Below are positions 1,785 through 40,032 of a stretch of 64,000 nt of DNA, one piece after another. Source of the stretch: a bacterium. GTDB taxonomy: Bacteria; Pseudomonadota; Gammaproteobacteria; Pseudomonadales; Moraxellaceae. Under the pieces are notes generated by a model. It worked only from the letters and a program-made list of their open reading frames with translations, ran no database searches and had not been told where the DNA came from. The DNA lies in the NCBI GenBank assembly GCA_029945725.1, contig JAQSDB010000001.1, forward strand, positions 186,001 to 250,000. The letters run 5' to 3'. Every line of letters starts with the position of its first letter. Position 1 is the first letter of the stretch. The position numbers and the translations under genes are program-made.

Positions 1785-3065
1785 TTAACGCTTGTCCAGC
1801 GGCACGATGTCGCGCTGGGTCGCACCCGTGTAGAGCTGGCGCGGACGTCCGATCTTGTACGGTGCTTCATGCATTTCAGTCCAGTGCGAAATCCAGCCGA
1901 CAGTACGAGCGAGGGCAAAAATCACGGTGAACATGGAGGTTGGAATGCCGATGGCCTTGAGAATGATGCCCGAGTAGAAGTCCACATTCGGGTAGAGCTT
2001 GCGCTCGACGAAATACGGATCGTTACGGGCGGCTTCTTCCAGTTTCATGGCCAGTTCCAGCTGCGGGTCATTGATGCCCAGCGCTTCCAGCACTTCGTCG
2101 CACGTCTCTTTCATGACCTTGGCGCGAGGATCGAAATTCTTGTACACGCGGTGACCGAAGCCCATGAGCTTGAACGGATCATTCTTGTCCTTGGCTTTGG
2201 CCAGGAACTTGTCGAGATTGTCCACGGAGCCGATCTCGTCGAGCATCTTCAGTACGGCTTCGTTGGCGCCGCCATGTGCCGGGCCCCAGAGTGCGGCGAT
2301 ACCGGCAGCGATACAGGCGTAGGGGTTGGCGCCGGTGGAGCCGGTCAGGCGCACGGTGGACGTAGACGCATTCTGCTCGTGATCCGCATGCAGGATGAAG
2401 ATGCGGTCCATGGCCTTGGCCAGGATCGGGTTGACCACGTACTCCTCGCAAGGCACGGCAAACATCATGCGCAGGAAGTTTTCGGCATAACCAAGCTTGT
2501 TGTCCGGGTACACGAAAGGCTGGCCGGCGTTGTATTTGTAGCTCATGGCGGCAATCGTCGGCATCTTGGCGATAAGGCGGATGGCGGCAATGCGGCGATG
2601 TTCCGGATTATTGATGTCCAGATTGTCGTGATAGAAAGCGGAGAGTGCACCGACCACACCACACATCACGGCCATGGGATGGGCGTCACGACGGAAGCCG
2701 CGATAGAAGAACTGCAGCTGTTCGTGAACCATGGTGTGCTGCGTAACGCGCTCCACGAAATCGGCTTTCTGCTCCGCATTTGGCAGTTCGCCATTGAGCA
2801 GCAGGTAACAGGTTTCGAGATAGTCGGATTCGGTGGCCAGCTGATCAATCGGATAGCCGCGATGCAGGAGAATGCCCTTGTCGCCATCAATGAAGGTGAT
2901 CTTGGATTCGCAAGCCGCCGTAGCCATGAAGCCGGGGTCGTAGGTGAAATAGCCCTGGGCGAGTACGTCTTTTACATCAATAACGTCCGGGCCAAGCGTG
3001 CCGGAGGAAACGGGCAGGTCAATCGACTTGTCGCCGATCGTGAGAGTTACTTTTGTGCCCGACAT
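1785..3065 (-). CDS. gltA: Citrate synthase (type I, hexameric type)
   Basis: Condenses acetyl-CoA and oxaloacetate to citrate, the entry step of the TCA cycle, in the cytosol. The 426-residue length and the beginning [12 protein letters not shown] match gammaproteobacterial type I enzymes. Active-site segments seen include the His-containing [11 protein letters not shown], the [14 protein letters not shown] block and the later arginine-rich C-terminus ending VPLDKR. The start at 3065 is preceded by AAGGAG with a 6-base spacer; the open frame extends 28 codons further but without support. It is transcribed away from sdhC, so the 530-base region between them should hold both promoters. The type I family is usually NADH-sensitive; that is inferred from family, not seen. 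Confidence 0.97.
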
Positions 3066-3433
3066 GGCAGTCTCCTTAAACAGAGGGTTCAGCGCGACCA
3101 AAGCAATTTGCGGACCTGAGCAGCGAGAAACCCGCTGCCGGTGCATCAACTTGTCATGAAAACACTTTGGGGAAGGCGCGCTAGCTTAAATTGTAAGACG
3201 GCTTTGTCAATCAAAGTACGCTGGTTCCGGTATCGATTCTGCCGGAAAAACACATGCTTAGCGCAGGTCATCAATGACTTCGGGGTCAGTGCGAGGTGCC
3301 GGACTGGTCTGCGCACTCCCGGGCTTTCCATTTTGCTCCAGCATGAGGCTGTTTGTGCTCAAAAAAACAACAGCCGCCTCATGGTGGCGCACGCAACTGT
3401 TTGTCTTGCCGGGATTTTACTGGCGTTACGGGT

Positions 3434-3462
3434 TTGTAATTGAATTTCTGCGGGATTATACT
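3434..3462 (+). promoter_or_regulatory. Probable sigma-70 promoter of the sdh-suc operon
   Basis: TTGTAA (3434-3439) and TATACT (3457-3462) are separated by exactly 17 bases. It would give a leader of roughly 125 bases before the sdhC GTG. It is the best-scoring match by eye in the gltA-sdhC gap. Confidence 0.6.
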
Positions 3463-3488
3463 TCCGGCCCGGTTTTGAGTCGACCGAG

Positions 3489-3512
3489 AAAGCCTTGTAA
3501 TTTCAAGGCTTT
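3489..3512 (+). promoter_or_regulatory. Terminator-like hairpin in the sdh leader (possible attenuator)
   Basis: A perfect 9-bp stem AAAGCCTTG/CAAGGCTTT (3489-3497 and 3504-3512) with a 6-base loop ends in a short T run. It lies about 20 bases after the expected transcription start and 85 bases before sdhC, where a read-through decision could be made. Confidence 0.4.
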
Positions 3513-3597
3513 TCAATGGCTTGCCGCAATATCCGCTTTTTCCCTTAGGTATTGGCCCAGGCCCACAAGCCTCCGGGCTCCCCACAGGAACCGCTCT

Positions 3598-3990
3598 GTG
3601 AAAAGCAACCGACCTGTCAATCTCAGTCTGTCCACGGTGCTGGCAGTCAATCTGAAATCTCCCGTTGCCATCGCTTCCATTTTGCATCGTATTTCGGGTG
3701 TGCTGATTTTTCTGCTGATTCCCGTGCTGCTTTATGTGCTTCAGGAGTCTCTTGCCTCCGAACAGGCTTTCGCTGCCGTCAAGACTGACGTGCTGGGTGG
3801 CCTGATTGGTGGTTTCCTGGTGTTTGTGGCCCTTGCAGGCTTCATTTTCCATATCATCGTTGGCGGCAAGCATCTGGTGCAGGACTTCGGTATTGGTGAG
3901 TCGCTGCAAGGTGGCCGCCTGTTTGCCTGGCTGGCCCTTGCCGCTGCGGCCTTCTTTATTGTCGTGGCGCTTGCCTGGATGGTGCTCTGA
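3598..3990 (+). CDS. sdhC: Succinate dehydrogenase cytochrome b556 subunit
   Basis: Membrane anchor of complex II; with SdhD it binds haem b and ubiquinone in the inner membrane. The 130-residue protein has the family signature SILHRISGVLIFLLIP near residues 25-40 (family haem/quinone region) and three hydrophobic segments, the last ending in LAWMVL. A GTG start at 3598 is chosen because AGGAA lies 7 bases upstream and the protein then begins MKSNRPVNLSL, as in homologues; the open frame runs about 108 codons further upstream without homology. The stop overlaps the sdhD start by one base. First gene of sdhCDAB. Confidence 0.95.
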   Translation: MKSNRPVNLSLSTVLAVNLKSPVAIASILHRISGVLIFLLIPVLLYVLQESLASEQAFAAVKTDVLGGLIGGFLVFVALAGFIFHIIVGGKHLVQDFGIGESLQGGRLFAWLALAAAAFFIVVALAWMVL

Positions 3991-4358
3991 TGAGAAACAG
4001 TGCAACGAGCTTCAGCCGCTCCGGTGTTTCCGATTGGCTGGTACAGCGTGTCAGCGCCTATATCCTCGCGGCGTATTTTTTTGTCATCGTCGGCTTTCTG
4101 ATCTGCCAGCATGATGCCGGCTATGCCCAGTGGTATGCCTTCATGACCTCGACGGCCATGCGCATTTTTACCTTGCTTGCACTGCTGGCGCTTGCCGGAC
4201 ACGCCTGGGTGGGTATGTGGACGGTTCTCACGGATTACATCACGGAACGCCAGTTGGGCCCCAAGGCCACCTTTTTGCGTCTGCTGCTTCAGGTTGGCAT
4301 GGCAATATTCATTTTTGTGTACGTGGTCTGGGGCATCCAGATCCTGTGGGGGAACTGA
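3990..4358 (+). CDS. sdhD: Succinate dehydrogenase hydrophobic anchor subunit
   Basis: Second membrane anchor of complex II, 122 residues with three predicted membrane helices (YILAAYFFVIVGFLI, LLALLALAGHAWVGM and the C-terminal VGMAIFIFVYVVWGIQ). The conserved HAWVGMWTVLTDYI region carries the His typical of the haem-ligand helix and an aspartate-tyrosine pair near the quinone site. Its ATG shares one base with the sdhC stop and it ends three bases before sdhA, so translation is very likely coupled. Confidence 0.94.
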   Translation: MRNSATSFSRSGVSDWLVQRVSAYILAAYFFVIVGFLICQHDAGYAQWYAFMTSTAMRIFTLLALLALAGHAWVGMWTVLTDYITERQLGPKATFLRLLLQVGMAIFIFVYVVWGIQILWGN

Positions 4359-4361
4359 TCT

Positions 4362-6179
4362 GTGGCTAGCGAAATCAAGGCAAGCAATATTCCCACGCTC
4401 ACGTTTGACGCTGTGATTGTTGGTGGCGGTGGCTCCGGTATGCGGGCCTCGCTGCAGCTGGCACGTGCCGGCCTTAAAGTGGCAGTGCTGACCAAAGTGT
4501 TTCCGACGCGTTCGCACACCGTGGCGGCACAAGGCGGTATCGGCGCTTCCCTCGGCAATATGAGCGAAGACAACTGGCACTATCATTTTTATGACACTGT
4601 GAAGGGTTCCGATTGGCTGGGTGACCAGGACGCCATCGAGTTCATGTGTCGCGAAGCGCCCAAGGTCGTGTACGAGCTCGAACACATGGGCATGCCTTTC
4701 GACCGTAATGCCGATGGCACGATTTACCAGCGTCCTTTCGGCGGCCACACCTCCAATTACGGTGAAAAACCGGTGCAGCGCGCCTGCGCGGCAGCGGACC
4801 GTACGGGGCATGCGCTGTTGCACACGCTGTATCAGGCCAATCTCGCCGCCAAAACAGAATTTTTTGTCGAGTGGATTGCGCTGGATCTGATCCGTGATGA
4901 AGAAGGCGATGTGCTCGGCGTGACGGCCATTGATCTGGCAACGGGCGACATCACTGCTTTCCAGGCCAAGTGCACATTGTTTGCCACGGGTGGTGCAGGT
5001 CGTATTTACCAGGCCTCGACCAATGCCTTTATCAATACCGGTGACGGCCTTGGCATGGCGGCGCGTGCCGGCATTCCGCTGGAAGACATGGAGTTCTGGC
5101 AGTTCCACCCGACCGGTGTGGCCGGTGCCGGTGTGCTGCTGACGGAAGGTTGCCGTGGTGAAGGCGGTCTCCTGCGCAACAAGAACGGCGAGCGCTTCAT
5201 GGAGCGTTATGCCCCGAACCTGAAGGATCTGGCGCCGCGCGATTTCGTGTCCCGTTCCATGGATCAGGAAATCAAGGAAGGCCGTGGCTGCGGCCCGAAT
5301 GGCGATTACGTCGTACTTGATCTCACGCATCTTGGTGCAGAAACCATCATGAAGCGTCTGCCTTCCGTGCATGAAATCGGCAAAAACTTTGCCAATGTCG
5401 ATTGCACCAAGGAAGCGATTCCGGTGGTGCCGACCATTCATTATCAAATGGGCGGTATTCCCACGAATATCCACGGTCAGGTGGTGGCGCCGAAAGACGG
5501 CAACCCTAATGCCGTGGTCAAGGGCTTCTACGCCATTGGCGAATGTTCCTGCGTGAGCGTGCATGGTGCCAACCGTCTTGGCACCAACTCGCTGCTGGAT
5601 CTGATTGTCTTCGGCAAGGCTGCGGGTGAGCACATCATCGAACAGGTGGCGCTGGCTCCTGCCTCGCACAAGTCGCTGCCGCAGGATGCCCTGGAAAAGA
5701 CGCTGGCCCGAATTGCTAAACTGGATAATTCGACGTCCGGCGAGTATTGCCAGGATGTGGCCAACGATATGCGTCGTGCCATGCAGACGCATGCCGGCGT
5801 GTTCCGTACCCAGGCATTGCTGGATGAAGGCGTGCTGAAGATCATGGAAATCGAAAAGCGCATCGGCAACATCCATCTCAAGGACAAGTCCAAGGTCTTC
5901 AATACCGCACGTATTGAGGCACTGGAGCTGGAAAACCTGATCGAGGCCGCCAAGGCCACCATCGTCTCCGCTGCTGCCCGCAAGGAATGCCGTGGTGCAC
6001 ATACCGTGGTGGATTACGAGCGCCCGGTGACCGATCCGGATCATCCGCTTGGCCGTAATGATAAAGAGTGGATGCGTCACAGCTTGTGGTACCGCGAAGG
6101 CAATCGCCTGGATTACAAGCCGGTCAAGCTGACACCGCTGACGGTTGAGTCGGTTCCTCCCAAGCCCCGTACGTTCTAA
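4362..6179 (+). CDS. sdhA: Succinate dehydrogenase flavoprotein subunit
   Basis: Oxidises succinate to fumarate with covalently bound FAD; peripheral on the cytoplasmic face of complex II. The 605 residues include the dinucleotide motif VIVGGGGSGMRA (about 19-30), the FAD-linking His52 in RSHTVAAQGG, the substrate loop FHPTGVAGAGVL, GCRGEGG, and the C-terminal RKECRGAHTVVDY and NDKEWMRHSLW segments. A GTG start at 4362 follows a GGGGGA ribosome site. It is fourth-to-last in a tight sdhCDAB cluster, 35 bases ahead of sdhB. Confidence 0.98.
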   Translation: MASEIKASNIPTLTFDAVIVGGGGSGMRASLQLARAGLKVAVLTKVFPTRSHTVAAQGGIGASLGNMSEDNWHYHFYDTVKGSDWLGDQDAIEFMCREAPKVVYELEHMGMPFDRNADGTIYQRPFGGHTSNYGEKPVQRACAAADRTGHALLHTLYQANLAAKTEFFVEWIALDLIRDEEGDVLGVTAIDLATGDITAFQAKCTLFATGGAGRIYQASTNAFINTGDGLGMAARAGIPLEDMEFWQFHPTGVAGAGVLLTEGCRGEGGLLRNKNGERFMERYAPNLKDLAPRDFVSRSMDQEIKEGRGCGPNGDYVVLDLTHLGAETIMKRLPSVHEIGKNFANVDCTKEAIPVVPTIHYQMGGIPTNIHGQVVAPKDGNPNAVVKGFYAIGECSCVSVHGANRLGTNSLLDLIVFGKAAGEHIIEQVALAPASHKSLPQDALEKTLARIAKLDNSTSGEYCQDVANDMRRAMQTHAGVFRTQALLDEGVLKIMEIEKRIGNIHLKDKSKVFNTARIEALELENLIEAAKATIVSAAARKECRGAHTVVDYERPVTDPDHPLGRNDKEWMRHSLWYREGNRLDYKPVKLTPLTVESVPPKPRTF

Positions 6180-6214
6180 GCGGCTACTAAGCAGATTTTT
6201 GCGAGGCACACCCC

Positions 6215-6922
6215 ATGAGTGAAGTGCGTATTTTTGAAGTTTATCGCTACGATCCGGACAAGGACGAAGCACCGTATATGCAAACCTACGAGCTGACGCT
6301 CGATGGTTCCGAACGCATGCTGCTGGACGCGCTGATCAAGCTGAAGGAAGTGGATGAGTCCCTGAGCTTCCGTCGTTCCTGCCGTGAAGGTATTTGTGGC
6401 TCTGACGGCATGAATATCAATGGCAAGAATGGCCTGGCCTGTCTCATCAACATGAAGACATTGCCGAAGAAGGTGGTGATTCGCCCGTTGCCCGGCTTGC
6501 CTGTTATTCGTGATCTCGTTGTGGACATGAGCATGTTCTATAACCAGTACGAAAAAGTGCAGCCGTACCTCATCAACAATACGCCAGCTCCTGCCAGGGA
6601 ACGCCTGCAGTCGCCGGAAGATCGTGAAAAGCTGGACGGGCTGTACGAGTGCATCCTGTGCGCCTGCTGCTCCACGTCCTGCCCGTCATTCTGGTGGAAT
6701 CCGGAAAAATTCCTGGGCCCGTCAGCACTGGTTCAGGCCTACCGCTTTCTCGCCGATACACGGGATACCGCGACGGCCGAGCGTCTGGCCCGGCTGGATG
6801 ACCCGTTCAGTGTCTTCCGCTGCCGCGGCATCATGAACTGCGTCAGCTCCTGCCCCAAGGGACTCAATCCGACCCGGGCGATTGGTCATATCCGTAATAT
6901 GTTGCTGACTCAGGGCACCTGA
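6215..6922 (+). CDS. sdhB: Succinate dehydrogenase iron-sulfur subunit
   Basis: Carries electrons from FAD to ubiquinone through three clusters. The 235 residues show the 2Fe-2S motif CREGICGSDG, the 4Fe-4S motif CILCACCSTSCP and the 3Fe-4S motif CRGIMNCVSSCPKGLNP, in the normal order. Length is normal for the family. The last of the sdh genes; a terminator-like hairpin follows 30 bases after the stop, then a structured gap before sucA. Confidence 0.98.
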   Translation: MSEVRIFEVYRYDPDKDEAPYMQTYELTLDGSERMLLDALIKLKEVDESLSFRRSCREGICGSDGMNINGKNGLACLINMKTLPKKVVIRPLPGLPVIRDLVVDMSMFYNQYEKVQPYLINNTPAPARERLQSPEDREKLDGLYECILCACCSTSCPSFWWNPEKFLGPSALVQAYRFLADTRDTATAERLARLDDPFSVFRCRGIMNCVSSCPKGLNPTRAIGHIRNMLLTQGT

Positions 6923-6952
6923 AGACGCTCCGTCAGCACCCTGCCGTATCAA

Positions 6953-6985
6953 CAAAGCCTCTGCAGTATTGCAGGGGCTTTGTTT
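6953..6985 (+). terminator. Terminator-like hairpin after sdhB
   Basis: CAAAGCCTCTGCA (6953-6965) pairs with TGCAGGGGCTTTG (6970-6982), one T-G wobble-like mismatch, 4-base loop, followed by TTT. The short T tract suggests partial termination, which would leave some read-through into sucA. Confidence 0.65.
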
Positions 6986-7006
6986 CAAGCAGGTATTGAG
7001 ACATCG

Positions 7007-7111
7007 TCGGCAGTCCTCGTCTGCCGATATTCAGCCGGGTAGCGGAAGCTTGCTGCCCGGTGCAGAATACCGGCCGCGCCGCCGGTATTGCTTCAGGTAC
7101 AACGCTGTACC
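7007..7111 (+). repeat. Four consecutive stem-loops in the sdhB-sucA gap
   Basis: Stem 1: TCGGCAG/CTGCCGA (7007-7013, 7021-7027). Stem 2: CCGGGTAGC/GCTGCCCGG (7035-7043, 7052-7060, one wobble). Stem 3: AATACCGGC/GCCGGTATT (7066-7074, 7081-7089), perfect 9 bp. Stem 4: GGTACA/TGTACC (7096-7101, 7106-7111). All lie within 105 bases and none is inside a gene. Confidence 0.75.
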
Positions 7112-7331
7112 GAAACAGGCTGTGCCAATGATGGCATCGCCATCCTGCTTTTCTGCCAGCAACCCTGGCGAAAGGCAGCCGTTTTAGCATTCAGCGGTTA
7201 CACTCAGTAGCTGGATGGATGAAGGTCGTGACGCCTTACAAGGGCATCGCGGGTCAAGGTAAAGAGAAGGCGAAACAGCATCCGTACGCAACAACATAGC
7301 GGCGGACTTCTCTTCAGCGGGAACATCAAAA

Positions 7332-10163
7332 ATGCAAGATGGCCAAATGTTGCGCCAGTGGAGCACCTCCCAGCTCTCGGCGGAAAACGCCGCCTATGTT
7401 GAAGATCTGTACGAACAATTTCTTGTCTCCCCCCAGGCTGTGCCGCAAGACTGGCGCAGCTATTTTGAAAAACTGCCTCGTGTTAATGGCGTTGCCCAGG
7501 ACACCCCGCACAAGGGTGTGCGCGAGCAGTTTCTGCTGCTGGCCAAGAACTCCTCGCGGGCGCAGGCGCTGCCGACCAGTCGTGTCAGTACCGAGCATGA
7601 GCGCCGGCAGGTTGCCGTATTGCAGCTGATTGCCGGTTATCGCAACCGCGGTCATCAGCGTGCCAGGCTTGATCCGCTCGGTTTGATGCAGCGCGAGCAG
7701 GTGCCTGATCTGGATCTTGTCACCCATGGCCTGACTCAGGGCGATCTCAATACCGTGTTCAATACCGGCAACCTTGCCATCGGCAAGGAAGAGTGCACGC
7801 TGGGTGAAATGGTGCAGGCCATGGAGGCCATTTATTGTGGCTCCGTCGGCGCCGAATACATGCATATCGTCAATACGGCTGAAAAGCGCTGGATTCAGCA
7901 GCGTCTGGAAAGCGTGCGCGGCAACCCGAATTTCTCGGTTGATACCAAAAAGCATGTGCTGGAGCGCATGACGGCCGCTGAGGGCCTGGAAAAATATCTC
8001 GGCACCAAATACGCCGGCGCCAAGCGCTTTGGTCTTGAAGGCGGGGAGTCGATGATTCCGCTGGTGGATGAGCTGATCCAGCGTGGCGGCTCCTACGGCA
8101 TCAAGGAAATCGTCATCGGCATGGCCCATCGTGGCCGCCTTAATGTGCTGGTGAACATCCTCGGCAAGAACCCGGGTGACCTGTTCAACGAGTTCGAAGG
8201 CAAAAGCATTACCAAGCACGGCTCGGGTGATGTGAAGTATCACCAGGGTTATTCCTCGAACGTGATGACGTCCGGTGGTGAAGTGCATCTCGCCATGGCC
8301 TTCAATCCCTCGCATCTGGAAATTGCATCTCCGGTGGTCGAGGGCTCGGTGCGTGCGCGCCAGGACCGGCGTCGCGACGCCAAAGGTCGTCAGGTGCTGC
8401 CCATCAGCGTGCATGGCGATGCGGCCTTTGCCGGTCAGGGCGTGGTCATGGAAACCTTCCAGATGTCGCAGACACGGGGTTTCCATACTGGCGGCACAGT
8501 ACACATCATCGTTAATAACCAGGTTGGTTTTACCACCAGCCGCCAGGACGATGCGCGCTCCACCGAGTACTGTACCGACGTGGCAAAAATGGTGCAGTCG
8601 CCGATTTTCCACGTTAACGGTGATGATCCGGAAGCCGTGTTTTTTGTGACGCAGCTGGCGCTGGATTTCCGCATGGAATTCAGCAAGGACGTGGTCATTG
8701 ATGTCGTTTGTTATCGCCGCCGCGGCCATAACGAGGCTGATGAGCCATCCTCCACACAGCCATTGATGTATCAGGTCATCCACAAGCTCCCGACTACGCG
8801 CACGCTGTATGCCGATCGTCTGGTGGAGGCTGGCGTGGTGACCAAGGTGCATGCTGATGACATGGTTGATGAGTACCGCAAGAATCTGGAAGCCGGCCAG
8901 CATGTGGTGAAAGCGCTGGTGCGCGAACCCAATAAATCACTGTTTGTGGACTGGTCTCCTTATCTCGGTCACGCCGTGGTCGATGAGTGGGATACCAGCG
9001 TGCCGCTGAAAACCCTGCAGGAGCTTGGCAAGAAGCTGGAAAGCCTGCCGGAAACCTTTGTGCTGCAAAAGCAGGTGCAGAAGGTGATGGAAGATCGCGC
9101 GCGCATGTGGGCGGGCAATCTGGAGTTCAACTGGGGTGCCGCTGAAACACTGGCGTACGCCACCATTCTGAACGATGGTTTTTTTGTGCGCCTGACCGGC
9201 CAGGATGTTGGGCGCGGCACCTTCTCGCATCGTCATGCCATTCTGTACAGCCAGAAAGACGGCACACCCTATGTGCCGCTGCAGAATGTCGATCCTGCGC
9301 AACCGGTTTTTGATATCTACGATTCGCTGCTGTCGGAAGAGGCGGTGCTGGCTTTTGAATACGGCTATGCCACGACAGCACCGAAGTCGCTGATCATCTG
9401 GGAAGCGCAGTTCGGTGATTTTGCCAACGGCGCCCAGGTGGTGATTGACCAGTTCATTTCCAGCGGTGAAACCAAGTGGGAGCGTCTGTGTGGTTTGACA
9501 CTGCTGTTGCCGCACGGATTTGAGGGGCAGGGGCCTGAGCATTCCTCGGCGCGCCTCGAGCGCTTTCTGCAGCTGTGTGCCGAACACAATATGCAGGTGT
9601 GCACGCCCACCACGCCGGCACAGATTTTCCATCTGCTGCGGCGTCAGGCCGTGCGCCCCTTGCGCAAGCCCTTGATCATCATGTCACCGAAAAGCCTGCT
9701 GCGTCACAAGCTGGCCGTGTCGACGCTGGAAGAGCTGGCTCATGGCCAGTTCCAGACTGTTATTCCCGAAATCGATGCGATCAAGCCTGAAGCAGTCACG
9801 CACGTGATTCTCTGCGGCGGCAAGGTGTATTACGACTTGCTGGAAAAGCGTCGCGAGATCAAGCGTGATGATGTCGCCATCATTCGTGTTGAGCAGCTCT
9901 ATCCTTTTCCGGAGAAGAGGCTTGCGGAAGTGCTGGCGCCATACAAGAACGTGAAGAGTGTGGTGTGGTGTCAGGAGGAGCCGATGAATCAGGGCGCCTG
10001 GTATTGCAGCCAGCATCATATTCATGCCGTGGTACGAAACCTGAAAGAGCCGTTGCGCGCACGCTACGCCGGTCGTCCACCGGCAGCAGCTCCGGCCTGC
10101 GGTTCCATGTACCTGCATGTCAAAGAACAAGCGGCGCTGGTGGAAGACGCTTTCAACAGCTGA
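7332..10163 (+). CDS. sucA: 2-oxoglutarate dehydrogenase E1 component
   Basis: Thiamine-diphosphate decarboxylase of the 2-oxoglutarate dehydrogenase complex, cytosolic. The 943 residues start [15 protein letters not shown] and include the E2-docking start, [14 protein letters not shown], the substrate loop [12 protein letters not shown], the thiamine-binding [11 protein letters not shown]...NNQVGFTT region and the C-terminal transketolase-like domain with [10 protein letters not shown] and [17 protein letters not shown]. The length fits the family. It leads sucAB-lpd-sucCD, 47 bases ahead of sucB, and is separated from sdhB by a structured gap, so it may have its own promoter as well as read-through. 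Confidence 0.98.
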
Positions 10164-31848: not shown

Positions 31849-32883
31849 GTGAGCGAAAAGCGTTATCAGGTTTTTGTCAGTTCGACTTATGCCGACCTTC
31901 AGGAAGAGCGTGCCGTGTTGACACAGGTGCTGCCGACGCTTGGCTGCCTGCCGTGCGGGCTCGAGTCGAATCCCGTGGAAACTGCCAGCGCCTGGACCTC
32001 CATCAAGAAGCTGATTGACGAGTCTGATTACTACATCCTTCTGAGTGGCAGCCGTTACGGTACGCTCTCCCCCTCGGGTGTCAGCTACACGCATATGGAA
32101 TACGTGTATGCCGCGACCAAGCAAAAGCCCATTCTGGTGCTGATGCATGAGGCGCCAGAAACCCGTCCAGTCGAGCTTCAGGAGAAAACACCGGAAGGCC
32201 GGCGCCAGCTCAATGATTTCCGGCAATTGCTGCAAAAAGGTTTTGTGGCGCGCTGGAGCGATACCCGTGATCTTGATACCGCCGTGCGCCAGTATCTGCC
32301 CCAGCTTATCAGGGCGCGCGCCATGCCAGGCTGGGTACGAGCCAACGGCGTCAGCAACCCTGAACTGACTCGTGAAATTGAAACGCTCAAGCTGCGGCTG
32401 CAAGGGTTGGAGCAGGAGCGCGAGCAGTGGCTGAACCAGCAGGCCGCCAGTCTGGGACCCTTGTCGATGGGCCAGGATGACTTCGAGATCATGTATCGCT
32501 GCAAGGCTTATGCGGCGGGTAATTGCGAAGATGTGCCTGTGCGTTCATCGTTGAGCTGGAACGCGATCTTCATGAGCTTTGCGCCTTATCTGAGTCAGCC
32601 TCAGCATGAAGACTTAATGGCGGCAAAAATTGCCGAACGCGTGCAGGAAACCGCACTCAAGGACGTACAGACGCATCGTCCGAAGACACATGCCGTCACC
32701 GACATTGTGCTTGCTCCCCTTGGCTTCAATACCATCAAGATACAGTTCCGTACGCTGGGACTGATCCGTCGTGCGCCACGCCCGGACGACAATCGCACCT
32801 GGTGGCAGTTGACCGCCGCCGGCGAGCAGCATCTGGCCGCACTAATGACGGTGCGACGGACTACAGCGGCTCGCCCCGCATGA
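31849..32883 (+). CDS. DUF4062 protein with C-terminal winged-helix-like region
   Basis: The 344 residues begin with the DUF4062 domain (KRYQVFVSSTYADLQEERAV, about 3-110; DYYILLSGSRYGTL; SYTHMEYVYA), a TIR-like fold often in stress or defence proteins. A coiled coil follows (LTREIETLKLRLQGLEQEREQ, about 171-192). The last third ends with a strand-helix unit (KIQFRTLGLIRRA... WWQLTAAGEQHLAALM) that looks like a winged helix. GTG start at 31849; a GGGG run upstream is the only ribosome-site candidate. It is a lone gene between murI and the glycerolipid cluster. Its role is unknown. Confidence 0.82.
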   Translation: MSEKRYQVFVSSTYADLQEERAVLTQVLPTLGCLPCGLESNPVETASAWTSIKKLIDESDYYILLSGSRYGTLSPSGVSYTHMEYVYAATKQKPILVLMHEAPETRPVELQEKTPEGRRQLNDFRQLLQKGFVARWSDTRDLDTAVRQYLPQLIRARAMPGWVRANGVSNPELTREIETLKLRLQGLEQEREQWLNQQAASLGPLSMGQDDFEIMYRCKAYAAGNCEDVPVRSSLSWNAIFMSFAPYLSQPQHEDLMAAKIAERVQETALKDVQTHRPKTHAVTDIVLAPLGFNTIKIQFRTLGLIRRAPRPDDNRTWWQLTAAGEQHLAALMTVRRTTAARPA

Positions 32884-33029: not shown

Positions 33030-34649
33030 ATGCGGAAATGGAACGGCTGGGGGGATGAGTCTACGGACTTCCCTGCGAACCCTGGCGTGCAGTCTTTTTT
33101 AAAGCAGGTTATGGGCGAGTCGCGCCCCTTGCCGGATGCCACTTATGAATCGGTGCTGGCATCTGTTCCGGTTTCACGCCTGCCGGCCCATCCCCTTGTC
33201 AGTACCCGTGCCGATATCCGGCTTTTGCATGCGCGTGGCCAGAGCTTGCCGGACTGGCTCGCCCTGCGTTCGGGGGCAATCGGTCTTTTTCCGGACGGGG
33301 TTGCCGAGCCTGAGTCAGGTGCAGACGTTCGCACCTTGCTGGATTTTGCCCATACCCATGATCTGGTGGTTATTCCCTACGGTGGCGGCACCTCGGTGGC
33401 TGGACACATCACCCCGCTGGCCGACCGCCGTCCGGTACTGACACTGTCGCTGGCGAAAATGAACAAGCTGCTGGCGCTGGATGTCGAGTCACAAATTGCC
33501 ACGATAGGTGCGGGTGCCAATGGCCCCCAGGTTGAGGCACTGCTTAACGCGGAAGGTTACACGCTCGGCCATTTCCCGCAGTCCTTTGAGCTTTCCACAC
33601 TGGGTGGCTGGGTAGTGACGCGCTCCAGTGGCCAGCAGTCCATGCGCTATGGTCGCATCGAACAGATTTTTGCCGGCGGCACGCTGGAGACCTTGCAAGG
33701 CACACTGGATATTCCCACTTTCCCGGCCTCCAGTGCCGGCCCTGACCTGCGCGAAATCGTGTTGGGTTCTGAAGGCCGTATTGGTGTGCTCACGGAAGTG
33801 AAAGTACGCATTACCCGCTTGCCGGAGCATGAAGAGTTTCATGTGTTTTTTATGCCGGGCTGGGATGCCGCCAGCTCTGCCATTCGCGAGCTGGCACAAC
33901 GCAAGCTGCCGTTTTCCATGCTGCGTCTCAGCAATGCCGAAGAAACGCGTACGCAATTGATTCTTGCCGGTCACGCAAAATCACTGGCGCTGCTGGACCG
34001 CATGTTGCGTATACGTGGTGCCGGTGATGGCCGCTGCATGATGACGGTCGGCCTCACGGGTTCAAAAGCGACGGTGAAGTTTGCCTTGCGCGAACTGAAA
34101 AAAGCGATCAAGCCCTACGGTGCCGTGGGCACCGGGCAATTGCTTGGCCGGAAGTGGGCCGCGAATCGTTTCAAGGCACCGTATTTGCGCGAATCGTTAT
34201 GGCAGCTTGGTTACGCTATAGACACGCTGGAAACGGCGGTGGACTGGCCGAAGGTAACGCCGACCATCAATGCGATAGAGGCGGCCTTGCGTGAAGGCCT
34301 GCAGGCTGAGGGTGAAAAGGTGCTGGTTTTTACCCATCTCTCGCATCTTTATGCCCAGGGCTCCAGTATTTATACGACCTATGCCTATCGTGCCGGCCCT
34401 GACTACGCGCGAACGCTGGCGCACTGGGAAAAGCTGAAGCGTGCTGCTTCGGACGTGATTGTCCGCATGGGCGGCACGATCAGTCACCAGCATGGCGTCG
34501 GTCGTGACCACGCGCCGTATCTGCCGGCTGAGAAAGGCGAGCTGGGCATGAGCGCCTTGCGTGCGCTGTGCCACCATTTTGATCCGGATGGCCGTCTCAA
34601 TCCGGGCAAGCTTTTGCTGGAACCTGTGCAAGACAAGGAAAATCATTGA
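33030..34649 (+). CDS. Alkyldihydroxyacetonephosphate-synthase-like FAD-binding oxidase
   Basis: VAO/PCMH-type flavoprotein of 539 residues. FAD-binding PP-loop VIPYGGGTSVAGHIT (about 130-145), the second FAD region STLGGWVVTRSSGQQSMRYG, and the C-terminal HFDPDGRLNPGKLLL are present. The ADPS family makes the ether bond of alkyl lipids in eukaryotes and some bacteria; related bacterial forms oxidise other 2-hydroxy acids. The ATG at 33030 has GAGGTG upstream. It shares one base with the G3P dehydrogenase start and leads a three-gene cluster, so substrates are likely glycerol-phosphate derivatives (inference). Confidence 0.85.
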   Translation: MRKWNGWGDESTDFPANPGVQSFLKQVMGESRPLPDATYESVLASVPVSRLPAHPLVSTRADIRLLHARGQSLPDWLALRSGAIGLFPDGVAEPESGADVRTLLDFAHTHDLVVIPYGGGTSVAGHITPLADRRPVLTLSLAKMNKLLALDVESQIATIGAGANGPQVEALLNAEGYTLGHFPQSFELSTLGGWVVTRSSGQQSMRYGRIEQIFAGGTLETLQGTLDIPTFPASSAGPDLREIVLGSEGRIGVLTEVKVRITRLPEHEEFHVFFMPGWDAASSAIRELAQRKLPFSMLRLSNAEETRTQLILAGHAKSLALLDRMLRIRGAGDGRCMMTVGLTGSKATVKFALRELKKAIKPYGAVGTGQLLGRKWAANRFKAPYLRESLWQLGYAIDTLETAVDWPKVTPTINAIEAALREGLQAEGEKVLVFTHLSHLYAQGSSIYTTYAYRAGPDYARTLAHWEKLKRAASDVIVRMGGTISHQHGVGRDHAPYLPAEKGELGMSALRALCHHFDPDGRLNPGKLLLEPVQDKENH

Positions 34650-36223
34650 TGAAGCGTGAACACCAGTCGCGTGCGCAGGCGTGGAGCCGCATCACGCAGG
34701 AAAACTGGGATCTGATCGTGATTGGCGGTGGCATTACCGGTGCCGGTGTTGCCCGCGAGGCCGTTCGCAAGGGGTTGAAAACACTATTGGTGGAGCAGCG
34801 TGACTATGCCTGGGGTACGTCCAGCCGCTCTTCGAAAATGGTGCATGGCGGCCTGCGTTATATTGCCCAGGGTGATATCAGGCTCACCTGGCACTCACTG
34901 ACCGAGCGCGAGCGTCTGCTGATCGAGGCGCCGGGACTGGTGTCGCGCATGGGCTACTGGTTTGTGCACTATCAGCATGTTTTCCCCGGCCGGATTGTCT
35001 TCGGTATTCTGCTCACGCTCTACGACATTCTCGCTGGTGTGCGTGATCATCGTTATTTCCCCGGGGCCGCTTTTCTCAAGCATATGCCGGGTTATCGTGC
35101 CAGGGATCTGAAAGGTGCTTCCCGCTATACCGATGCACTGGTGGACGACTCACGTCTGGTGATGCGCGTGCTGGACGAAGCGCAGGCGGATGGTGCCCTG
35201 GCGCTGAATTACGTGAAGGTGGAATCCCTGCTGATGGAAGAGGGCAGGGTGGCTGGCGTCAATCTGCACGATGAAGTTGCGGATGCTGCCGCCGCGGTGC
35301 GTGCGACGGTGGTGGTGAATGCGACTGGTGCGTGGGCGGATCGACTGCGCGAGAAACTCGCTGGCGAGAAAAAAGTACGTCCGCAGCGTGGCAGCCATAT
35401 TGTGCTGGCGCCGGGACGTCTGCCGATTTCCGAAGCCGTCATTTTCATGCATGCAGAAGACGGCCGCCCCCTGTTTATTTACCCGTGGGAAGGTCGAACC
35501 ATCGTCGGTACTACCGATATTGATCATCAAGATGATCTGGATGTCGAAGCAGCCATTACCCGGCGCGAGTTTGATTACCTGCTGAGCGGCGTCAATACAC
35601 AGTTCCCGGCTGAGAAAATTACACGAGACGATATTATTTCCAGCTGGAGTGGCGTGCGTCCCATCGTCGCTTCCGGTGGTGGCGTCAATCCTTCTGCCGA
35701 ACGCCGCGATCACAGCGTCTGGGATAATTCAGGCCTGATTACGGTTACCGGCGGCAAGCTCACTACGTTCCGCCTGATTGCGCTGGATGTTTTAAAAGCC
35801 GCGGAAAAATATTTCCCCGGTCTTGATGCCGGCGATAAAAAGGGACGTGTTTTTCGCGCCGTCGACATTATCAAGACCACCTACCCAACAGCTGATTTGC
35901 AGCGCCTGAAAGGCCGTTTCGGTTTTCATGTGGCGCAGTTCCTGGGTGAGGCGGACAGCGCCGAACTGAGCGCCATTGCCGAGGTGAAAACCCTGTGGGC
36001 TGAGTTGCGCTGGGCCGCACGTTATGAGCAGGTCGAGCATCTGGATGACCTTTTGCTGCGTCGCACACGTCTTGGCTTGCTCTTGCCCGAAGGGGGTCTG
36101 CAGCAGCTGCCGGGCATTCGTCCGGTCTGCCAGCAAGAACTGGGATGGAGTGATGCCCGCTGGGAAGAAGAGGTAGTGCGTTACCGTGATATCTGGCAGC
36201 GCCATTACAGTCTGCCTGCCTGA
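34649..36223 (+). CDS. FAD-dependent glycerol-3-phosphate dehydrogenase (GlpD/GlpA family)
   Basis: Oxidises sn-glycerol 3-phosphate to dihydroxyacetone phosphate, membrane-associated and feeding quinone. The 524 residues show the FAD motif LIVIGGGITGAGVAREAVRKG, TSSRSSKMVHGGLRYIAQGD, the TTDIDH segment, SGVRPIVASGG and the TVTGGKLTTFR block of this family. The ATG at 34649 overlaps the previous stop by one base. It differs from stand-alone GlpD in being fixed between an ADPS-like oxidase and an FGGY kinase, so it may be dedicated to that pathway. Confidence 0.9.
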   Translation: MKREHQSRAQAWSRITQENWDLIVIGGGITGAGVAREAVRKGLKTLLVEQRDYAWGTSSRSSKMVHGGLRYIAQGDIRLTWHSLTERERLLIEAPGLVSRMGYWFVHYQHVFPGRIVFGILLTLYDILAGVRDHRYFPGAAFLKHMPGYRARDLKGASRYTDALVDDSRLVMRVLDEAQADGALALNYVKVESLLMEEGRVAGVNLHDEVADAAAAVRATVVVNATGAWADRLREKLAGEKKVRPQRGSHIVLAPGRLPISEAVIFMHAEDGRPLFIYPWEGRTIVGTTDIDHQDDLDVEAAITRREFDYLLSGVNTQFPAEKITRDDIISSWSGVRPIVASGGGVNPSAERRDHSVWDNSGLITVTGGKLTTFRLIALDVLKAAEKYFPGLDAGDKKGRVFRAVDIIKTTYPTADLQRLKGRFGFHVAQFLGEADSAELSAIAEVKTLWAELRWAARYEQVEHLDDLLLRRTRLGLLLPEGGLQQLPGIRPVCQQELGWSDARWEEEVVRYRDIWQRHYSLPA

Positions 36224-36274
36224 ACCGGCATCCAGAAGCCTGCCGGAAAAACAACAGGAACGGGTGAGTGTGCG

Positions 36275-37825
36275 ATGGAAACCCTGCTGGCCATTGATAA
36301 CGGAACACAAAGCGTGCGGGCCCTGCTGTTTGATCGCGACGGCCAGCTGCTGGCGCGTTCGCAGGTCAAGTTTGATCCGGCCTACCACGCGCCAGAGCCG
36401 GGCTATGCCGAGCAATCGGCCGACTATTACTGGGAGTGCCTGGTCCGTGCAGTGCGCGGTTTGTGGTTGCAGGGGGCAAAGCCTTCAGAGGTGGTCGGTG
36501 TTTCCCTGACCACACAGCGCGGCACCGTGGTGCCGGTCGATCGCGAGGGCGTCGCGCTCAGGCCGGCCATCACCTGGCTGGACCAGCGTGAAGCCAAAAA
36601 CATTCCCGTGCTTTCCCTGCACTGGCAGGCGGTCTTTCGTGCCATCAATGCCACCGATACGCTGATGCATCTTTGTCGCCAGGCCGAGGCCAACTGGCTG
36701 GCTGAAAACGAAAAAGAAACCTGGCAGCGCATGCACAAGTTTTTGCTGCTCTCGGGTTATCTCACGCATCGCCTTACCGGGCAGTTTCGTGATGCGGTGG
36801 CCTCCCAGGTGGGCTATGTGCCCTTTGATTTCCGGCGTCAGGAGTGGGCGCGCTCTTGGGACTGGAAATGGCAGGCGATAAAACTCAGGCGTGAGCATTT
36901 GCCTGATCTGGTACCGGCGGGGGGGAAGCTGGGGGTGATCACAGCAGCGGCGTCTGCCGTGACCGGTATTCCGGAAGGTCTGCCCCTGTTTGCCGCTGGT
37001 GCCGACAAGGCCTGTGAAGTGCTGGGTTCGGGCAGCCTCACGCCAGGCATCGGTGCGCTCAGCTTCGGCACGACCGCCACCATCAATACCATCAGCCGCC
37101 GTTACGTCGAGGTCACGCCCCTGTTGCCGCCGTATCCGGCACCCGTGCCCGGGCATTACTGCACCGAAGTGCAGACCCTGCGCGGGTTCTGGATGGTGAA
37201 CTGGTTTCGTGACCAGTTTGGTGCCGATGACGTGGCGCGAGCCAGGGTCGAAGGCGTGCCCGTGGAAGCCGTTTTCGAACGGCATTTGCACAACACTCCG
37301 GCGGGGAACATGGGTTTGATGCTGCAGCCCTACTGGTCGCCCGGTGTCCGTGAGCCCGGTCGTGAGGCCAAGGGCGCCTTGATCGGCTTTGGCGATGTGC
37401 ATCAGCGCGAGCATGTGTATCGCGCCATTGTCGAAGGCCAGATGTATGCCCTGCGTGAGGGTGGCGAGCGCATTGAAAAGCGCGCCAGGGTGAAGCTGAA
37501 AAGCCTGCGCGTCTCCGGTGGGGGTGCCCAGTCTGATGGCGTAGTGCAGATTGCTGCCGACGTTTTCGGTCTGCCGGTGGAGCGGCCGCATACCACGGAA
37601 ACGTCTGGTCTGGGCGCTGCCATTTGCGCCGCCGTGGGCCTCGGCTTGCAGCCTGATTTTCCGACCGCGGTGGCACGCATGACGCGTGTTGCCAGCACGG
37701 TGCGTCCGGATCGCGAGCATCAGGTGCTTTACGAGAAGTTGTTTACCCGTGTCTATCGTCCCCTCTACGCGCAGTTACAGCCGCTCTATAAAGAGATTCG
37801 TAGTATTACCGGCTATCCACGCTAG
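36275..37825 (+). CDS. FGGY-family carbohydrate kinase
   Basis: The 516 residues match the FGGY fold: the phosphate loop AIDNGTQSVRALLFD at the N-terminus, TTQRGTVVPVD and the ITWLDQRE segment, the middle GADKACEVLGSG with GALSFGTTATI and the C-terminal ATP site SGGGAQSDGVVQIAADV...ETSGLGAA. Related to glycerol and xylulose kinases; the substrate is not clear, glycerol or dihydroxyacetone is suggested by the neighbours. It follows the G3P dehydrogenase by 51 bases, probably in one operon with both genes before it. Confidence 0.9.
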   Translation: METLLAIDNGTQSVRALLFDRDGQLLARSQVKFDPAYHAPEPGYAEQSADYYWECLVRAVRGLWLQGAKPSEVVGVSLTTQRGTVVPVDREGVALRPAITWLDQREAKNIPVLSLHWQAVFRAINATDTLMHLCRQAEANWLAENEKETWQRMHKFLLLSGYLTHRLTGQFRDAVASQVGYVPFDFRRQEWARSWDWKWQAIKLRREHLPDLVPAGGKLGVITAAASAVTGIPEGLPLFAAGADKACEVLGSGSLTPGIGALSFGTTATINTISRRYVEVTPLLPPYPAPVPGHYCTEVQTLRGFWMVNWFRDQFGADDVARARVEGVPVEAVFERHLHNTPAGNMGLMLQPYWSPGVREPGREAKGALIGFGDVHQREHVYRAIVEGQMYALREGGERIEKRARVKLKSLRVSGGGAQSDGVVQIAADVFGLPVERPHTTETSGLGAAICAAVGLGLQPDFPTAVARMTRVASTVRPDREHQVLYEKLFTRVYRPLYAQLQPLYKEIRSITGYPR

Positions 37826-37874
37826 AATTCGCGCCAGCCTGTTACCGCTCTTTGCGCTTCAAAGGATGCCCCCC

Positions 37875-38720
37875 ATGATTCTGACGCGACGTCTTCGCTT
37901 TCTGCTTCCGCTGTGCCTTCTCCTGACCGCCTGTGCCAGCACCACCCAGGAGGGCGCGACCGGCATCAAGCGCAAGCAGTTCATGCTGCTGTCCAGCTCT
38001 GAAGTGGACAGCATGGCCCTGCAGTCCTATCAGAGCGCTCTCGGTGACGCTGGCAAGGCTGGCACGCTGAACAAGGACAAGGTCACGCTCGAGCGTATCC
38101 GTGTCATTGGTGATCGCCTGATTCCGCAGACATCAGCTTTTCGCCCGGATGCCCTGCAGTGGCAATGGGAAGTGAATCTGGAGTCGAAAAACGAACTGAA
38201 TGCCTATTGTGCCCCGGGCGGCAAGATCATGTTTTTCTCCGGCATCATTTCCCAGCTCAAGCTCACAGATGACGAGATCGCGGCCATCATGGGCCATGAA
38301 ATTGCGCACGCCTTGCGTGAGCACGGCCGCGAGCGCATGTCGCAAGCCTACGCCCAGCAGATGGGCTTGCAGATTGGTGGCAGCCTGCTCGGTATCGACA
38401 GCAATCAGGCGCAGCTGATCCAGCAGGTTGCCACGGTTGCCATCAGTTTGCCGCACAGCCGCGAACAGGAGGCCGAGGCCGATATTCTCGGGCTGGAGCT
38501 GATGGCACGTGCCGGTTATGACCCGCGCGCTGCGGTTTCACTCTGGGAGAAAATGGGGCAGGCATCGGGTGCGGGCGGACCGGCTTTTCTCAGTACCCAT
38601 CCATCCGGACCGCAGCGCATCAGCGGCATTCAGTCAAAGTTGCCGAGTGTGATGCCGCTCTACGAACAGGCAAAATCCGGGCTGTCTAAAACGCCTGCAC
38701 GTGTGGTACCACGCACCTGA
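37875..38720 (+). CDS. M48-family metallopeptidase, lipoprotein
   Basis: Zinc protease of 281 residues. Lipoprotein signal peptide with lipobox LTAC (Cys about residue 20), then the LERIRVIGDRLI segment, the zinc motif in MGHEIAHALREHGRER and the third ligand region SREQEAEADILGLELMARAG. The ATG at 37875 has AAAGGA 8 bases upstream; an in-frame ATG 9 bases earlier is less likely. Resembles LoiP/BepA-type periplasmic quality-control proteases, acting on outer-membrane proteins; the specific substrate is unknown. Confidence 0.9.
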   Translation: MILTRRLRFLLPLCLLLTACASTTQEGATGIKRKQFMLLSSSEVDSMALQSYQSALGDAGKAGTLNKDKVTLERIRVIGDRLIPQTSAFRPDALQWQWEVNLESKNELNAYCAPGGKIMFFSGIISQLKLTDDEIAAIMGHEIAHALREHGRERMSQAYAQQMGLQIGGSLLGIDSNQAQLIQQVATVAISLPHSREQEAEADILGLELMARAGYDPRAAVSLWEKMGQASGAGGPAFLSTHPSGPQRISGIQSKLPSVMPLYEQAKSGLSKTPARVVPRT

Positions 38721-38779: not shown

Positions 38780-39871
38780 TCAGGCCGCATAAAGCGGCTT
38801 GGACAGTTCCACCCAGTCGATGTCGCCATCGCTCACCGCATTTTCGTATTCCAGAATTCCCAGCGCTTCAAACTTGGGGCGCACGGTATCGGTCAGCAGG
38901 CCGATGCGGGCCAGATTGGGGATGATGCGCGAAAACAGGAACTTGCGGAAATACTCCATGATAGAGGCACTCAGCACGCGCTCGCGTGCTGCCGCAACGT
39001 CCCAGCCAAACTCCTCAAAGACTTCCGTGGCAATCAGGCGCTCACGCATCACTACACAGGCTTCATAGGCAAACTGGGCGCGCTCTTCAATTTCCTCGGG
39101 AGACAGTTGCTTGACGATGTACTCAAGATAGTTAACACCAAACGTGACATGACGGGCTTCGTCACGAACCACCAGATAAATCAGTTTTTTCAGCAGCGGA
39201 TCCAGCGACACCATTTGCATGGTATTGAAGGCAGCCAGCGCCAGCCCTTCAATGATGATCTGCATGCCGATGAATTTCAGGTCCCAGCGCGGGTCGGTCA
39301 GGATCTTGTCCAGCAACAGTTTCAGGTTGGGGTTCACCGGGTAGGTGAAGCCGACTTTTTCCTGCAGATAACGGTTGAAGGTTTCGACATGGCGGGCCTC
39401 ATCAAAGGTTTGCGAGGCGGCATAGAGCTTGGCATCGAAGGTAGGGGCACAGGATGCCAGTTGGGAGGCCACCAGCAGCGCTCCCTGCTCGCCATGCAGA
39501 AATTGCGACAGCGTCCATGACTGGTTATGCCAGCTGAAGCGCAGCTTTTCCTCGTCACTCAGTTTTTCAAACGGTTCATAACCGACAAAGGGATTGAAGC
39601 CCTGATCCACGGGCGGTTCGGTTTTGGGGTAGGTCTGGTTCCAGTCCAGATCCATTTCCTGATTCCAGTTCAGTTCCTTGCCCAGCTGGTAGAGCTTGCG
39701 GATACGGCCGTCGCTGCTGCTGTAGTCCCAGTTGTAGCTGCCAGTGAGCGGCGTCTGGAAGACCTCGGCCACATCCTCGATATCTTTTGCCGTCATGCCT
39801 GCTGCGGGCTCTCCCGCTTCCGGAAAGTACTGGATGGCGGTGGGCGTTTTCTCAATGAACTTGATGGACAT
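38780..39871 (-). CDS. Ferritin-like di-iron carboxylate protein
   Basis: The 363 residues form a four-helix ferritin-like domain with two copies of the DEARHV motif. Putative iron ligands are E128 (HGEQGALLV), E158 and H161 (FDEARHV), E208 (IIEGLALAAF) and E238 and H241 (RDEARHV). This ligand set (E-ExxH-E-ExxH) is that of di-iron oxygenases, oxidases and R2-like proteins. The ATG at 39871 has GGGAG upstream. It has no gene partner. Members of this family are common in Pseudomonadales, but I know no proven reaction; an oxygenase acting on a lipid or aromatic amine is possible. Confidence 0.8.
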   Translation of the reverse strand: MSIKFIEKTPTAIQYFPEAGEPAAGMTAKDIEDVAEVFQTPLTGSYNWDYSSSDGRIRKLYQLGKELNWNQEMDLDWNQTYPKTEPPVDQGFNPFVGYEPFEKLSDEEKLRFSWHNQSWTLSQFLHGEQGALLVASQLASCAPTFDAKLYAASQTFDEARHVETFNRYLQEKVGFTYPVNPNLKLLLDKILTDPRWDLKFIGMQIIIEGLALAAFNTMQMVSLDPLLKKLIYLVVRDEARHVTFGVNYLEYIVKQLSPEEIEERAQFAYEACVVMRERLIATEVFEEFGWDVAAARERVLSASIMEYFRKFLFSRIIPNLARIGLLTDTVRPKFEALGILEYENAVSDGDIDWVELSKPLYAA

Positions 39872-40032
39872 AATGCAGGTCTCCCGGGTTTTTATAGGGG
39901 ATGAGGCTGGGGCATCAACGTCTGGTGCAGAAGTTAGAATAAATACTCTGGTTTGCGCCAAGGCAAGTCGTGATCAGGCCATTCCAGCGCCGGTCATCAG
40001 CCGACAGCCTGCGATTAGCCCGCATGAGGGCG

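Follow-up and report, generated by a model that had tools for sequence, protein, structure and literature searches.

Described counterparts and the trio of the window

The closest described counterpart of the gene trio reported here is the PA3026-PA3024 cluster of Pseudomonas aeruginosa, for which a role in ether-lipid synthesis was proposed by Kotecka et al. 2021 (PMC8151288). Deletion of this operon in strain PAO1161 left growth on glycerol and on BIOLOG plates unchanged, and overproduction of GliR (PA3027) raised expression of the trio, of the phospholipase C gene PA3464 and of the YegS gene PA3023 (PMC8151288). The enzyme ADPS takes acyl-dihydroxyacetone phosphate (acyl-DHAP) as its substrate and not dihydroxyacetone phosphate (DHAP) itself, and residues R352, Y508 and R447 of the Dictyostelium enzyme are important according to mutagenesis (PMC3509576). 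1-O-alkylglycerols are cleaved by alkylglycerol monooxygenase (AGMO), an oxygenase that uses tetrahydrobiopterin; no other enzyme is said to be known for this reaction (PMC7911779). The trio described here was found in the window, i.e. the whole stretch of 64,000 nucleotides that was analysed (positions 186,001 to 250,000 of contig JAQSDB010000001.1, assembly GCA_029945725.1), from a Moraxellaceae genome of 3.34 Mb.

The trio lies on the + strand and encodes an ADPS-like FAD enzyme (33030..34649, 539 aa), a GlpD-like FAD dehydrogenase (34649..36223, 524 aa) and an FGGY-family kinase (36275..37825, 516 aa). The open reading frame of the oxidase runs from an ATG at 33030 to a TGA ending at 34649 (N-terminus MRKWNGWGDE). 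Its stop codon is overlapped by one base by the ATG of the GlpD-like gene at 34649 (TGATG), and a gap of 51 bases separates the latter from the kinase gene; this geometry, given in a first-pass annotation of the window, agrees with the open reading frame coordinates. The three family assignments of that annotation also hold, as the proteins match FAD_binding_4 and FAD-oxidase_C, DAO and DAO_C, and FGGY_N and FGGY_C of Pfam, respectively, all above curated cut-offs, and are backed by PDB comparisons. The likeness to PA3024-PA3026 that it points out is borne out: gene order and annotations of strain PAO1 match those in PMC8151288, where the genes for the oxidase, the GlpD-like protein and the FGGY kinase stand in the same order and on the same strand in a cluster with PA3027 (GliR) and PA3023. 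This likeness is one of gene order and annotation, and the window differs in having a DUF4062 gene upstream instead of a divergent AraC gene.

We propose, with a probability of roughly 0.5, that the trio encodes three consecutive steps by which a glycerol lipid with a 1-O substituent is broken down, 1-O-alkylglycerol derived from ether lipids being the likeliest substrate. Clusters of this type are already in print, and their family assignments are nothing unusual; new here are the breadth of the trio, a His-Gln-His subfamily of ADPS-like proteins, a kinase that is not GlpK, and the swap of this kinase for a lipid kinase. The combination of these four features makes breakdown the best reading, preferred over synthesis of ether lipids, a related route that acts on a different glycerol ether or on a polyol, and plain glycerol use, in that order. 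Families, conserved order, residues and kinase swap can be read from the sequences; the substrate, the direction, the electron acceptor and the closing partner (water or acid) are what we infer from them.

In the proposed route, the FGGY kinase would use ATP to phosphorylate the free end of the alkylglycerol, yielding 1-O-alkyl-glycerol-3-phosphate, a step for which actinobacteria would use a YegS/DAGK-type lipid kinase instead. The GlpD-like flavoprotein would then oxidise C2 to give 1-O-alkyl-DHAP, with electrons passing to quinone. Finally, the ADPS reaction would be run in reverse: flavin N5 would form a bond with C1 of the DHAP part, a long-chain alcohol would be released, and a fatty acid or water would resolve the adduct to acyl-DHAP or DHAP. 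The alcohol could be directed to beta-oxidation and DHAP to glycolysis. Kinases and quinone-linked dehydrogenases of these families both push towards a phosphorylated ketone, and with 1-O-alkylglycerol as input the three steps follow one another without a gap in the enzymes, a point in favour of breakdown. The trio would share the job of AGMO; we consider it nearly as probable as the breakdown itself that it represents a second route beside AGMO, in which the ether is opened by a flavin without O2 as a reactant and for which two unrelated kinases have been recruited across phyla.

Conservation of the trio and of its catalytic residues

The GlpD-like gene follows the oxidase gene on the same strand in 87 of 89 trio-type loci, i.e. 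in all 87 that can be tested, since contig ends cut off the position after the oxidase in L028 and L108. Five cut contigs being set aside (L041, L090 and L116, for instance, end too early for the kinase to be judged), an FGGY kinase gene lies downstream on the same strand in 79 of 84 loci, including one (L033) with an opposite-strand gene between the GlpD-like and FGGY genes. This linkage far exceeds chance. In a class-wide sample, the oxidase found matches at an E value of 1e-30 in 12 of 369 genomes, host genome included; of the remaining loci, eight belong to the trio type (43–60% identity). A scan of named genomes, in which 80 of 586 loci were kept so that taxon frequencies are not estimates, placed the trio in Moraxellaceae, Marinobacter, Vreelandella, Hahella, Shewanella and Moritella, and also in Burkholderiales, Pseudovibrio, Anaerolineae, Acidobacteria and others. 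The closest named relatives of the oxidase among the loci kept are from metagenome-assembled genomes (MAGs) of Moraxellaceae (81%) and Fluviicoccus (66%).

Among solved structures, the oxidase is closest in sequence to ADPS of Dictyostelium (2uuu, E 2.5e-76) and of guinea pig (4bby, E 1.4e-56). Residues R299, Y448 and R387 of the window protein correspond to R352, Y508 and R447 of the Dictyostelium enzyme, as mapped by hand on the ADPS alignment (the solved chain is numbered three below the paper), and are conserved throughout the 89 trio members; the ADPS active-site residues, whose absence the first-pass annotation would have taken as refutation, are therefore present. Counterparts of guinea-pig H300, R419, R515, Y578, H615 and H617 are also found in all 89, and that of T309 in 88; the five remote ADPS loci discussed below (L035-L039) are excluded from these counts. 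The trio oxidases thus share with ADPS/AGPS the fold, the catalytic Tyr, two Arg and the flanking His residues, but differ in several respects: the His-His-His motif of the guinea-pig enzyme (615-617) reads His-Gln-His in the window and in 86 of the 89 (H616 replaced by Gln), the position of D303 is Gln in all 89, GHFPQS stands in place of GHxPDS, and they form a clade of their own. Because the His-His-His motif is lacking, we name the window enzyme ADPS-like rather than ADPS.

Structural comparison with an AlphaFold model (mean pLDDT 83) gave ADPS/AGPS structures as the first 37 PDB matches, followed by D-lactate dehydrogenases. In a tree of 64 rows, the 26 that stand for the trio group together in a single clade (98/100), with an actinobacterial clade containing GlpD-linked forms as its sister (87/93, below the star mark), and guinea-pig ADPS clusters with the remote bacterial ADPS of L036, L038 and L039 (100/100); the placement of Dictyostelium ADPS is not settled by this tree. 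Two proteins with FAD-oxidase_C are encoded in the host genome in total. We rejected glycolate oxidase and D-lactate oxidase as identities of the trio protein in view of model scores (112.4 bits on the NCBIfam GlcD model, below its cut-off of 567.9), residues and fold. Two MAGs labelled Actinomycetota (L054, L061) carry a proteobacteria-like FGGY trio with a His-His-His motif, which may reflect transfer or a mislabelled bin.

In the GlpD-like dehydrogenase, H50, R54 and Y55 of E. coli GlpD are kept in 87 of 87 sequences, and H233, R317, R332 and K354 in 86, the remaining row being gapped. Given the functional roles that we assume for these site residues, their conservation leads us to expect a glycerol-3-phosphate head in the substrate. 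The protein scores 285.7 bits on the GlpD model NF008899, below the cut-off of 360, which is strict, as it is passed by only one of 14 control genomes although ten of them give a match. No other full-length match to the GlpD family was found in the host genome, which does contain GlpK. The trio could accordingly be read as serving ordinary use of glycerol or glycerol-3-phosphate, with the GlpD-like protein as the GlpD of the organism and the oxidase as a D-2-hydroxy-acid dehydrogenase, consistent with the conserved GlpD site and with D-lactate dehydrogenases as the next fold matches after ADPS. We regard this as improbable, since the ADPS-specific residues are kept in all 89 oxidases, the PAO1161 deletion mutant still grows on glycerol (PMC8151288), and a GlpD above the model cut-off coexists in 19 of 40 trio genomes. 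The last count, by which the trio protein as a mere replacement of GlpD was rejected as a general rule, conflicts with a remark in PMC8151288 that strains outside Pseudomonas have no glpD/glpK homologues.

Of the GlpK residues R83, E84, W103, Y135, D245, Q246 and F270, which we take to be its glycerol contacts, the trio kinase keeps only some. While R83, W103 and the base D245 are kept in 79 of 79 trio kinases, Glu84 is absent from all of them, being Gly, Ala, Ser or Thr; the position of Gln246 is Lys in 77 and Gln in one; that of Y135 is Phe in 60, Leu in 13 and Tyr in one; and at Phe270 all 79 have a gap of two residues in the alignment. The score on the GlpK model TIGR01311 is 135.7 bits against a cut-off of 590.35, whereas the single other FGGY protein of the host is a canonical GlpK (723.8 bits) with the whole contact set. 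The best matches of the trio kinase are the models of AI-2 kinase (LsrK), xylulokinase and XylB, none above the NCBIfam cut-off. In view of the changed contacts and of these best matches, the trio kinase is probably not a plain glycerol kinase. The first-pass idea that kinase and dehydrogenase supply DHAP to the oxidase is not supported, on four counts: ADPS takes acyl-DHAP (PMC3509576), the kinase is without the GlpK contacts, a canonical GlpK is encoded elsewhere in the genome, and nearly half of the trio genomes searched carry a cut-off-passing GlpD.

The resemblance to LsrK and xylulokinase rather than GlpK would fit a similar route of three steps for a different glycerol ether or a polyol, such as an aryl or alkoxy glycerol or a sugar-alcohol derivative, in which the ADPS-like enzyme would serve as an oxidase or an ether lyase for a substrate other than a lipid. 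The remote relatives L128 and L130, which accompany xylulokinase and sugar ABC transporters, point the same way, but they stand on a long separate branch and are without the N-terminal WNGWG part. Among the neighbouring genes scanned (54 of the 89 trio loci, with 49 of 53 upstream and 41 of 52 downstream neighbours and nine others, called by a custom script and tallied from the first 25 families per list) transporters of a common family are not found repeatedly next to the trio, and the links to a lipid kinase and to FadR described below also argue for a lipid. We rank this alternative closely after synthesis and consider it unlikely.

Kinase replacement in actinobacteria and direction of the proposed route

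In a phylum sample of actinobacteria, oxidase matches were found in 82 of 296 genomes. Gene context was analysed in 40 stretches (33 best matches and seven lower ones), several of which are cut by contig ends and in which genes beyond about 5 kb would be missed. A GlpD gene lies beside the oxidase gene in 12 of the 40, and in nine of these 12 a YegS/DAGK kinase gene lies 3-262 bases downstream of the oxidase gene; YegS_C and DAGK_cat were confirmed by Pfam in all eight of the nine that were scanned. No YegS gene was found in the 28 stretches without a GlpD gene, nor an FGGY gene in any of the 40 (Fisher p 8e-7 for the YegS-GlpD association, with rows that are not independent by descent). Two clusters on plasmids of Streptomyces and Tsukamurella show the same pattern: a YegS/DAGK gene comes after the ADPS-like gene, with TetR and GlpD-like genes, identified by Pfam, in divergent orientation. 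These clusters resemble the trio in that an ADPS-like and GlpD pair adjoins a kinase, but differ in the type of kinase, the divergent GlpD gene, the TetR regulator and the retention of His-His-His. Rv2249c-Rv2252 is presumably a counterpart of these ADPS-like, GlpD, TetR and YegS clusters. A search for YegS at 1e-5 found no homologue in any of the 94 loci compared, the one of the window included, so that in those stretches the lipid kinase is an alternative to the FGGY kinase and not an addition to it. A YegS-type lipid kinase in the place of the FGGY kinase points to a glycerol lipid as the compound that is phosphorylated. The rise of PA3464 and PA3023 together with the trio under GliR (PMC8151288) also speaks for breakdown of a lipid.

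The same gene set could in principle be used for synthesis of ether lipids, as proposed in PMC8151288: kinase and dehydrogenase would provide DHAP, an acyltransferase encoded elsewhere would convert it to acyl-DHAP, and the ADPS-like enzyme would exchange the acyl for an alkyl group. The conserved ADPS residues and the fold are compatible with this, and Agps of Myxococcus has been linked to alkenyl-ether formation (PMC11868695). PlsB, proposed in print as the source of acyl-DHAP and the only acyltransferase family searched, exceeded its cut-off in the host and in 12 others of the 31 trio genomes searched (13 in all), with one more match below it and none in the other 17; the set comprised the host and 30 of the 40 genomes used for GlpD coexistence, some of them MAGs. 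However, DHAP is a central metabolite for which a dedicated kinase is needless; the trio kinase is unlike GlpK; kinase and dehydrogenase would merely remake DHAP, while acyl-DHAP would still have to come from elsewhere; the lipid-kinase swap is left unexplained; and the 17 genomes without a PlsB match also speak against synthesis. Moreover, the neighbours scanned beside the trio include no recurrent family of acyltransferases or alkyl-DHAP reductases, in contrast to the remote ADPS genes of L035 and L036, each of which directly precedes a short-chain dehydrogenase gene (in the regions 2591-5094 and 4675-7409, respectively), an order as would be found in a synthetic operon with alkyl-DHAP reductase. 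Synthesis is therefore unlikely in our judgement, albeit the first of the alternatives, and the alkylglycerol formation put forward in the first-pass annotation, while possible, is less likely than breakdown.

Several observations weigh against breakdown. ADPS is known for synthesis, and we infer that its reverse could work as a pathway step; with PlsB in the host and 12 other genomes, and other acyltransferases possible, synthesis is not blocked. The FGGY gene is not the next one in five trio loci (L031, L100, L104, L109 and L115, the last with only 934 bases visible past the GlpD-like gene), and three genomes with kinase-less loci that were searched gave only distant FGGY matches of at most 31% in two cases and no match at 1e-20 in the third (G398). 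Of the 12 actinobacterial clusters with ADPS and GlpD, three are without YegS; Nonomuraea has ADPS, GlpD and TetR but no YegS within 5 kb, and six further plasmid-borne relatives show neither GlpD nor YegS. The window has no FadR gene and 33 loci have AraC instead, and genes for lipases or alcohol dehydrogenases do not turn up repeatedly in the scanned neighbours of the trio. No phenotype was seen for the PAO1161 operon deletion, although alkylglycerols are not named among its conditions (PMC8151288); its unchanged growth answers the glycerol half of the deletion test suggested in the first-pass annotation, lipids not being reported in the sections available. We found no biochemistry on the direction or substrate of the trio, and no report of bacterial alkylglycerol breakdown or of an alkylglycerol kinase role for it was recognised among titles and abstracts of the top results in open-licence literature.

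If the trio is catabolic, it would allow the turnover of ether lipids to be approached through genes in Proteobacteria, Chloroflexi and Acidobacteria, and via the swapped kinase in actinobacteria. Surveys infer ether-lipid producers from Agps homology (E below 1e-30, 30% identity; PMC11868695) and might then count consumers as producers, should trio proteins pass this filter against the Myxococcus query.

Regulators, neighbouring genes and remote relatives

The upstream regulator varies by clade, with a divergent AraC gene in 33, a co-directional FadR gene in six and a DUF4062 gene in seven of the 94 loci. AraC domains were identified by Pfam in 21 of the 49 upstream neighbours scanned. The FadR-like genes lie at most 143 bases upstream; four encode GntR and FadR_C domains according to Pfam (L104, L107, L109, L115) and two were recognised by similarity (L108, L116). 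Regulators with FadR_C are of the acyl-CoA-binding type in E. coli, which fits a fatty-acid end product. Four loci with ADPS and GlpD genes but no adjoining FGGY gene (L100, L104, L109, L115) are from Anaerolineae-type MAGs; FadR lies upstream in the last three, and the genome of L109 has no FGGY match at 1e-20. The DUF4062 gene is restricted to the window and its relatives L040, L041, L042, L044, L045 and L106; in the window it lies directly upstream of the trio (31849..32883, + strand, identified by Pfam) and would be accessory at most.

A conserved downstream gene was sought but not found, no family occurring in more than four of the 50 genes of the mainly downstream set. The M48 metalloprotease encoded 46 bases downstream of the kinase gene in the window (37872..38720, + strand, identified by Pfam) belongs to a family present in three of 50 scanned neighbours and is probably outside the system. 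Between positions 30000 and 40000 of the window, a tRNA is the sole Rfam match at gathering threshold, and promoter and terminator scans gave fewer sites than in shuffled sequence. The M48 gene adjoins a gene on the − strand (38780-39874) for a diiron protein that resembles AurF and R2-like ligand-binding oxidase.

Among the remote ADPS loci, the oxidase gene of L037 is followed by one for a cyclopropane-synthase-like methyltransferase, and in L038 (3752-4780) an epimerase/NAD_binding_4 gene lies 1.5 kb past it, which might also be expected for ether-lipid synthesis; in L039 a contig end cuts off the region after it. HMG-CoA reductase genes are found near the ADPS genes of L035 and L039. The more distant clusters L128 (5043-7992) and L130 (4878-7836), on plasmids of Shinella and Paracoccus, combine a remote FAD oxidase with xylulokinase and a UgpC-type ABC transporter, and perhaps represent a polyol route.

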